A stretch of 64,000 nt of DNA from Mycobacterium sp. UM_WGJ. GTDB taxonomy: Bacteria; Actinomycetota; Actinomycetes; Mycobacteriales; Mycobacteriaceae. The stretch is taken from the NCBI RefSeq assembly GCF_000455125.1, contig NZ_AUWR01000055.1:101129-165128 (forward strand), read 5' to 3'. Positions 30,671 through 44,880 of this stretch are shown in pieces (within the stretch, counting starts at the first letter, position 1; every line of letters starts with the position of its first letter). The translations under genes were made by a program, and so were the position numbers. The notes under the pieces were generated by a model, which saw only the letters and a list, made by a program, of their open reading frames with translations, was not told where the DNA came from and made no database searches.

Positions 30671-30776
30671 GGGCGGTTAGCGAGCCTCGACGGAGGAGAG
30701 GCGAAGCTGGACCGCCCCATCAAGTCCAGCGGTTAGCGAGCCTCGACGGAGGAGAGGCGAAGCTGGACCGCCCCAT
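30671..30776. repeat. Tandem pair of a 48-bp palindromic element (type 1)
   Basis: Two identical 48-bp copies (30673-30720 and 30729-30776), period 56, fill the gpsA-ddlA gap. Each has outer arms (GGGCGGT at 30671-30677 with ACCGCCC at 30711-30717; GCGGT with ACCGC in copy 2) and inner arms GCCTC/GAGGC around a 9-nt loop GACGGAGGA. A related 47-bp copy lies in ectA at 44488-44534. Because both flanking genes are on the minus strand, the element may be transcribed as RNA hairpins between two essential genes. Confidence 0.85.
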
Positions 30777-30790
30777 AAACCGGAGGCCGG

Positions 30791-44313: not shown

Positions 44314-44880
44314 ATGACGGATACGGATCATGTCCGGCTTCGGACACCAACTGTGGCGGACGGCCAGGCCCTATGGCAGATGGCGGTCGACAGCGCCGCT
44401 CTCGACGTCAACTCGCCGTACGCCTACCTGCTGTGGTGCCGCGATTTCGCTTCTACCTCGGTAGTCGCCGAGGTAGAGGGCGAGGCCGGCGGTTCAGCGA
44501 GGCTCGACGCAGGAGAGCCGAAACTGGGACCGCCGCACAAACTCGGCGGCTTTGTCACCGGCTATCGGCGTCCCGAGGATCCGCAGGCCCTGATGGTCTG
44601 GCAGGTGGCTGTCAACGCCGCGCACCGGGGAGCCGGCCTGGCCGGCAGGATGCTCGATCACCTGGCGAGCACGCAGGTCACTCGAGGCGTTACTCATCTT
44701 GAGACCTCGATCACACCGGACAACGAGGCCAGCCGCCGACTGTTCGGCGCCTTCGCTCGGCGATGGGATGCACCACTGGAGTGTTCCGTGCTGTTCGGAG
44801 CGGATTTGTTCGCCGAATCTCATCTGGCAGAAGAACTGTTTCGCATCGGGCCGCTTCGGGTACCCCCACGTCGCCAGTGA
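44314..44880 (+). CDS. ectA: L-2,4-diaminobutyrate acetyltransferase with an in-frame repeat insertion
   Basis: GNAT-fold enzyme, first dedicated step after EctB in ectoine synthesis: acetylates diaminobutyrate to N-gamma-acetyl-diaminobutyrate. Diagnostic EctA stretches are LRTPTVADGQALWQMAVDS, DVNSPYAYLLWCRDFASTS, GFVTGYRRPEDPQALMVWQV, GAGLAGRMLDHLA and the CoA-loop region ETSITPDNEASRRLFGAFARR. Between VVAEV and GFVTGY, where EctA proteins have a short turn, this one has about 20 extra residues (EGEAGGSARLDAGEPKLGPP...) encoded by a palindromic repeat at 44488-44534. The frame is kept and the rest is intact. Length is 188 residues. Whether the enzyme stays active is not visible. A 188-nt gap separates it from ectB. 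Confidence 0.92.
   Translation: MTDTDHVRLRTPTVADGQALWQMAVDSAALDVNSPYAYLLWCRDFASTSVVAEVEGEAGGSARLDAGEPKLGPPHKLGGFVTGYRRPEDPQALMVWQVAVNAAHRGAGLAGRMLDHLASTQVTRGVTHLETSITPDNEASRRLFGAFARRWDAPLECSVLFGADLFAESHLAEELFRIGPLRVPPRRQ
44488..44534 (+). repeat. Type 1 palindromic element inside ectA
   Basis: A 47-bp copy of the element found twice at 30671-30776. Outer arms are GGCGGT (44488-44493) and ACCGCC (44529-44534); inner arms GGCTC (44501-44505) and GAGCC (44515-44519); loop GACGCAGGA. Relative to the intergenic copies one inner base pair is swapped from C-G to G-C on both sides, keeping the pairing. In the reading frame it encodes AGGSARLDAGEPKLGPP. Confidence 0.85.

Follow-up and report, generated by a model that had tools for sequence, protein, structure and literature searches.

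A dispersed 57-bp palindromic repeat with in-frame copies in ectA and other protein genes of Mycolicibacter

The window analysed here, a stretch of 64,000 nucleotides, is part of a 4.47-Mb Mycolicibacter draft genome. It carries ectA, whose product of 188 residues matched the NCBIfam equivalog TIGR02406 with 177.1 bits (cut-off 120.6), the match being divided into two stretches. The nearest named homologues of the protein belong to Mycolicibacter heraklionensis. As judged from the open reading frames, three more genes lie 3' of ectA, arranged as would be expected for ectB, ectC and ectD. The features of the window that bear on the repeat are the following.

44314..44880, + strand: ectA, diaminobutyrate acetyltransferase, 188 residues, host gene of the insertion (TIGR02406; solved EctA structures 6sjy, 6sk1 and 3d3s)
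44485..44541, + strand: inserted unit of 57 bp, 19 codons, residues 58-76, AGGSARLDAGEPKLGPPHK (empty site in relatives; gap against 6sjy; model match)
44488..44534, + strand: hairpin of the ectA unit, 47 bp, with outer arms GGCGGT/ACCGCC and inner arms GGCTC/GAGCC (RNA fold, covariation)
44487..44492, + strand: left flanking direct repeat CGGCGG at ectA (six of the seven left letters recur at offset 57)
44544..44549, + strand: right flanking direct repeat CGGCGG at ectA, 57 bp downstream (match at offset 57)
30671..30723, + strand: intergenic copy 1, short-armed subtype (67.9 bits, E 1.4e-15)
30727..30779, + strand: intergenic copy 2, in tandem with the first at a 56-bp period (70.5 bits, E 2.7e-16)

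The original prediction, made from the letters alone, had described a 47-bp hairpin at 44488-44534, and both its sequence and its coordinates proved correct. The RNA of this hairpin was predicted to fold with -27.9 kcal/mol (z -2.87). The further proposal that the hairpin had entered ectA in frame and added about 20 residues was borne out in kind and corrected in size. In a DNA alignment with 15 ectA homologues the segment was a clean insertion, and the site was uninterrupted in all other rows but one. Among the relatives with an uninterrupted site were M. heraklionensis 1211594.5, M. arupensis and M. nonchromogenicus, and the nearest element-free relatives had a single GGGCGG or similar stretch at this position. 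The ectA of M. heraklionensis Davo had two units in tandem, so that the suggested alignment of close relatives with and without the segment yielded empty, one-unit and two-unit forms. Since EctA has 188 residues in the window, 169 in an empty relative and 207 in the two-unit form, the unit is 57 bp, equivalent to exactly 19 residues. The insert appeared as one clean 19-residue gap when the protein was compared with the solved structure 6sjy.

A normal loop of EctA was rejected as an explanation. Among 80 EctA homologues, the element was present in one (M. heraklionensis Davo) and two Streptomyces proteins (L036 and L060) had longer, unrelated loops; one member of this count (L054) was not parsed by the script and was normal by eye, and one set of EctA rows left out four of 32 (L020, L022, L036 and L069). 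Equivalent loops of unrelated sequence in diverse genera, which the original prediction had named as an outcome that would speak against it, were not found in these homologues, except for the two from Streptomyces. Their loops lie at the same turn, which shows that insertions are tolerated there.

The ectA region, used as a first query, had 60 matches in the genome. A covariance model, R1, was built on an alignment, A1, of 33 copies that included those of the window, and it found 102 copies in 76 places of the draft genome (150 of 5671 candidates were scored). The original prediction had suggested such a search and would have been contradicted by a genome without further copies; instead, the repeat is dispersed in about 100. 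Within the window there were three strong matches, the ectA unit scoring 73.6 bits (44487-44541, E 4e-17), and the next best had an E-value of 0.06. Chance similarity was rejected on the strength of the window E-value of the ectA unit and the number of copies. The consensus of the unit is roughly CCGGCGGTTCAGCGAGGCTCGACGNAGGAGAGGCGAAGCTGGGACCGCCGCATGAAC. The hairpin is 47 bp long in one subtype and 45 bp long in the other. The intergenic pair at 30671-30779 belongs to the second; it had been taken for the same element as the ectA segment, which holds for the family but not for the form, since the pair has the shorter arms. One unusual locus (L183, G000:C4:6780-6935) has two tandem copies of 77 rather than 55 bases each, about 22 of them extra, with a period of 79 bp. 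Several copies lie at or beside contig ends (C1:97479-97511, C12:127958-128028, C28:29981-30035 and C78:1-46 of G000), so the repeat may interrupt the assembly, and there may be more copies than were counted. A set of 72 loci omits L109, L189, L191, L192 and L193, which are contig-end or weak copies, together with duplicate loci.

All ten of the named Mycolicibacter genomes searched carried the repeat, with 33-119 copies each, and the model search gave no copies in two nearby Mycobacterium species, M. talmoniae and M. fragae. Of 396 sampled genomes from the GTDB genus, counting the source genome, 36 had a match at E 1e-8 or better; 22 of these had at least 14 matches each and 14 had between one and six. 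A smaller sample gave matches in four of 36 other genomes of the genus, two of which had a single weak match each, and in none of 24 genomes of other genera. Across the genomes searched, Mycolicibacter has many copies of the element, and other lineages have it at most sporadically. A separate observation concerns a 6.0-Mb genome of the same genus, in which the only match at E 1e-8 or better is a near-consensus unit (L235, G153:C1:1487282-1487336, E 7.7e-18) that lies in no frame callable as a gene and may have come by transfer from Mycolicibacter. Carriage by phages or plasmids was rejected, as there was no match in the phage, plasmid and viral-contig collections searched. A known RNA family was also rejected; at gathering thresholds the window shows only two tRNAs. 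Among the titles and opening lines of abstracts listed from one open-licence library, none was recognised as describing such an element in mycobacteria.

The original prediction had noted a compensated C-G to G-C swap between the arms of the ectA and intergenic copies and had argued from it that folding is under selection. The swap is real between these copies, but 48 of the 93 distinct copies lack pairing at the position concerned, 41 having G.G there, and the argument fails as it was made. Support for folding came instead from the stem as a whole. Over 17 pairs in the 93 distinct copies, 92.3% of the cells were paired compared with 88.2% in shuffles, and both-sided changes occurred at 11 stem pairs against a shuffle mean of 4.8, values that none of 500 shuffles reached, in an alignment that was fitted to the model and leans towards structure, and in which related rows can exceed shuffles without structure. 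When the partner was slid by 1-3 columns as a control, pairing fell to 25-44%. The outer helix, which forms terminal inverted repeats, was paired in 94.4% of cells. Folding of the predicted hairpin is supported by the overall covariation of the stem rather than by the single swapped pair.

Of the 76 places, 20 were classed as in-frame insertions in genes, a classification that is a judgement. In 18 of them the coding scores were positive on both sides in one frame and this frame was open through the element. The other two (L091 and L161) lie near the N-terminus, with a negative upstream score, and were included on account of a family match that begins directly behind the element. Excluded from the class were a degenerate copy in a coding region (L188), a copy with a negative upstream score (L107) and four places where the element would add only a C-terminal end (L007, L149, L150 and L166). 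A Pfam or NCBIfam match was obtained for 18 of the 20 hosts; L112 had none and L117 was left out of the scan. The host families are EctA, MurD, FadD5, alpha-(1->6)-mannopyranosyltransferase A, an AraC-type regulator, a KshA_C Rieske oxygenase, a carbon-nitrogen hydrolase with three tandem units, two short-chain dehydrogenases, a Thioredox_DsbH protein, a GT87 mannosyltransferase with two units, ADC, SRAP, a UvrD/PDDEXK protein, LytR_cpsA_psr, a Polyketide_cyc2 protein, a Thioredoxin_4 protein with two units and ScpA. In 11 hosts one stretch of the family match spans both sides of the insert, in the hydrolase and the Rieske protein the match is in two stretches with the break at or near the insert, and in five other matched hosts the insert is in a linker or near a terminus. 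MurD, compared with solved structures, has a clean 19-residue gap. The coding share of bacterial genomes is usually about 90%, and genes are depleted of copies, since 20 of 76 is far under that share (binomial p about 1e-39).

The unit is open in four of the six frames when the consensus frames are read by eye. Among the 20 in-gene places, these frames were used 14 times (GGSARLD...), five times (on the opposite strand, ...FASPxSSLAEPP), once and not at all, a bias with p 2e-5 against equal use in a post hoc comparison. The inserted peptide is small and polar and mostly reads GGSARLDxGEAKLGPPHE. Further cases came from sister species: one copy uses the fourth open frame, a TetR-like protein has four units, and a CHAD-like protein has five in-frame tandem units (both named by reading). 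One gene has one unit in G066 and three in G387. From the reading frames, the 19 residues are probably translated as part of the host proteins.

The boundaries of the element were compared between filled and empty sites. At ectA and ADC, the empty site has one GGGCGG or CGGCGG and the filled site has one at each end, 57 bp apart. The boundaries in the nitrilase gene are similar, and those in murD and fadD5 only partly so; likewise, the preference for a CCGGCG-like target is clear at the first three genes and partial at the last two. The left seven letters recurred with at least six of seven matching at 11 of the 20 in-gene loci, at offset 57 in all 11. At the other nine, which fell below this match, the best weak match was at 57 in four, 57 was among ties in three, and L117 and L168 had theirs at 56 and 62, respectively. 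Among 51 other loci, 18 were scorable, nine at 57 and nine at 55, 56, 58 or 63. The offset of 57 was thus found in 11 of 11 in-gene loci and in nine of 18 others (Fisher p 0.005). No TA termini were seen on the element. The direct repeat of 6-7 letters could have arisen by duplication, could have existed beforehand, or could be where a truncated second unit begins; some right-hand repeats are visibly of this last kind, and consequently tandem decay and target duplication are not separable at every locus.

In alignments of related genomes, a given gene could be filled, empty or scarred. Twelve relatives were compared at murD, of which six were filled, three were empty and clean, and three were scarred, with the hairpin gone and the linker letters GAATCC remaining with or without CAT. 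By reading, the loss in G062 occurred between two GCTGGG repeats. The fadD5 gene is filled in G061, G022 and G065; the 3' end of the unit is kept in G068, linker-like letters are present in G062 and G016, and five other relatives have no clear remnant (G066 was left out). The nitrilase-like gene has three units in the source genome, a remnant, GGCGGTTCAG, in G062 and a clean site in seven relatives; four relatives gave no match to the gene at E 1e-40. The acetoacetate-decarboxylase-like (ADC) gene (L005 and L244) has a reversed unit in the source genome and a unit of rather different sequence at the same site in the more distant G066, and it is empty in closer relatives (G072 and G016 were left out). 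That the site is filled with different units in two distant genomes, the closer ones being empty, suggests that the target was used twice.

The element in murD had no variable base over six genomes, two of which (G022 and G061) are near-identical and not to be counted as independent, and likewise none in a set of seven (L160, L196, L197, L198, L200, L201 and L207). The element in fadD5 had none over three genomes. No other window of equal length was invariant, either in murD (0 of 384) or in fadD5 (0 of 431), the least variable having one and two variable bases, respectively. The murD variant is absent from all other loci examined, which makes copying between loci unlikely as the cause. In 14 pairwise comparisons the element was identical at 43-47 of 47 positions, with flank means of 0.82-0.94 and up to eight of 22 flank windows equally conserved; in ten of the 14 pairs the relatives' loci were those with the best model scores, a choice biased towards conserved elements. 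Shared copies at ectA, SRAP, the UvrD/PDDEXK gene and the Rieske gene vary, with 43-45 of 47 identical. A constraint on the DNA or RNA of the element is possible at some loci.

Taken together, the segment in ectA is very probably a copy of a dispersed, 57-bp palindromic repeat, a MITE-like passenger of Mycolicibacter (the M. terrae complex). The repeat would land at CCGGCG-like sites and end between two copies of a direct repeat of about 6 bp. With a length of 19 codons and four open frames, some insertions into genes would keep the frame and add a polar peptide, and selection would retain those that the protein tolerates, for example at surface turns. In-frame tandem growth and precise or near-precise loss would be made possible by the flanking direct repeats. 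Tolerance is the presumed reason for the survival of the in-gene copies, and movement may depend on a putative transposase or on replication slippage or template switching at the direct repeats.

Several other explanations were weighed against the passenger. The freezing of the murD and fadD5 copies counts against a neutral passenger, because a passenger does not predict it, and it raised the alternative that the element has been domesticated at some loci, its DNA or RNA acting there as a binding site or RNA structure. The absence of any other invariant window in the two genes and the uniqueness of the murD variant argue for domestication. However, the margin over windows with one and two variable bases is small, the six murD genomes include the near-identical pair, the copies at ectA, SRAP, UvrD/PDDEXK and Rieske do vary, and the murD hairpin was lost in three relatives and never shown in three others, so that domestication is rather unlikely. 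A broader scenario, also rather unlikely, is a still-active 57-bp mobile cassette that would insert, multiply and be lost in steps of 19 codons, such that essential enzymes would gain and lose loops from one sister species to another and the copies in murD and fadD5 would have been put to use and frozen at all their bases. A very different alternative is that the hairpin is never translated, being skipped by ribosomes or removed from the RNA, for which the mitochondrial byp elements are a parallel. A strong hairpin in coding RNA and hosts that are otherwise conserved enzymes would suit such a process, but the in-gene units that could be scored all have lengths divisible by three (11 of 11), and no in-gene place of the 20 uses a stop-containing consensus frame, neither of which skipping needs. 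Moreover, the 45-bp subtype, whose unit length is not divisible by three, does not occur in genes (0 of 10 places compared with 20 of 61 for the 47-bp type; p 0.053, suggestive only). Skipping is accordingly regarded as very improbable.

Two known classes of repeat were considered in the same way. The mycobacterial interspersed repetitive units (MIRUs) typically lie in operons between codirectional genes. They are a class of tandem repeats of 46-101 bp described in M. tuberculosis (PMC3914561), and they resemble the present element in their short tandem arrays, similar length and occurrence in Mycobacteriaceae. However, many-copy matches (at least 14) were found in just 22 of the 396 genomes of the GTDB genus, and in-frame copies occur in many enzymes. 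The 56 non-gene places (21 codirectional, 14 convergent, 12 divergent, six unclear and three at edges) did not markedly favour codirectional gene pairs or one orientation (12 against nine). On these features, there is little likelihood that the element is a MIRU. An equally slight likelihood attaches to a REP/REPIN-type palindrome moved by a RAYT (Y1) transposase. REPs are likewise short hairpins of high copy number that have been reported in genes in several species (PMC3733652). In contrast to REP/REPIN systems with a RAYT, PF01797, the sole transposase family searched, was absent from the source draft genome and from 11 of 12 relatives, hence from 12 of 13 genomes overall, and RAYT mobilisation was rejected on these grounds. 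The one match in the 13 genomes is in M. senuensis (L234, G070:C111:169663-170013).

The 107-bp Correia/NEMIS elements of Neisseria, ERIC, YPAL and RU-3 are described as MITE-like repeats with open frames fused to host genes (PMC2229807), and the present element is likewise a MITE-like repeat, with terminal inverted repeats and an open frame joined to its hosts. Those of Neisseria, enterobacteria and Yersinia differ in being about 100-200 bp and proteobacterial, and several are reported to have target site duplications and TA termini (PMC2229807). The Rickettsia and Wolbachia palindromic elements (RPE and WPE) are dispersed repeats located between genes and in frame in unrelated conserved genes (PMC2229807, PMC10969869, PMC3767692, PMC4224334). 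The original prediction had likened the ectA segment to RPEs and proposed an actinobacterial counterpart; the behaviour agrees, since the element is palindromic, dispersed (102 copies) and in frame in unrelated protein genes (20 of 76 places), but with RPEs of about 100-150 bp (PMC2229807, PMC10969869, PMC4224334) it is about half their size or less, and it occurs in a different phylum, so that the two are alike by behaviour and not by size. One RPE paper describes the insert at the same locus in each ortholog (PMC4224334); unlike RPEs, the present element often forms tandem, in-frame arrays and differs in presence, absence and scars between close species. Related species have the same genes with the element present, absent, scarred or in tandem, which makes insertion, loss and tolerance by the protein directly testable. 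The numbers of in-frame copies are possible markers for the M. terrae complex, and some caution is due in annotation, where family models split such proteins into two stretches, as in EctA and MurD. Rickettsia and Wolbachia are the best-known hosts of in-frame coding palindromes, and here such palindromes occur on the scale of a genus in a GC-rich actinobacterial lineage.
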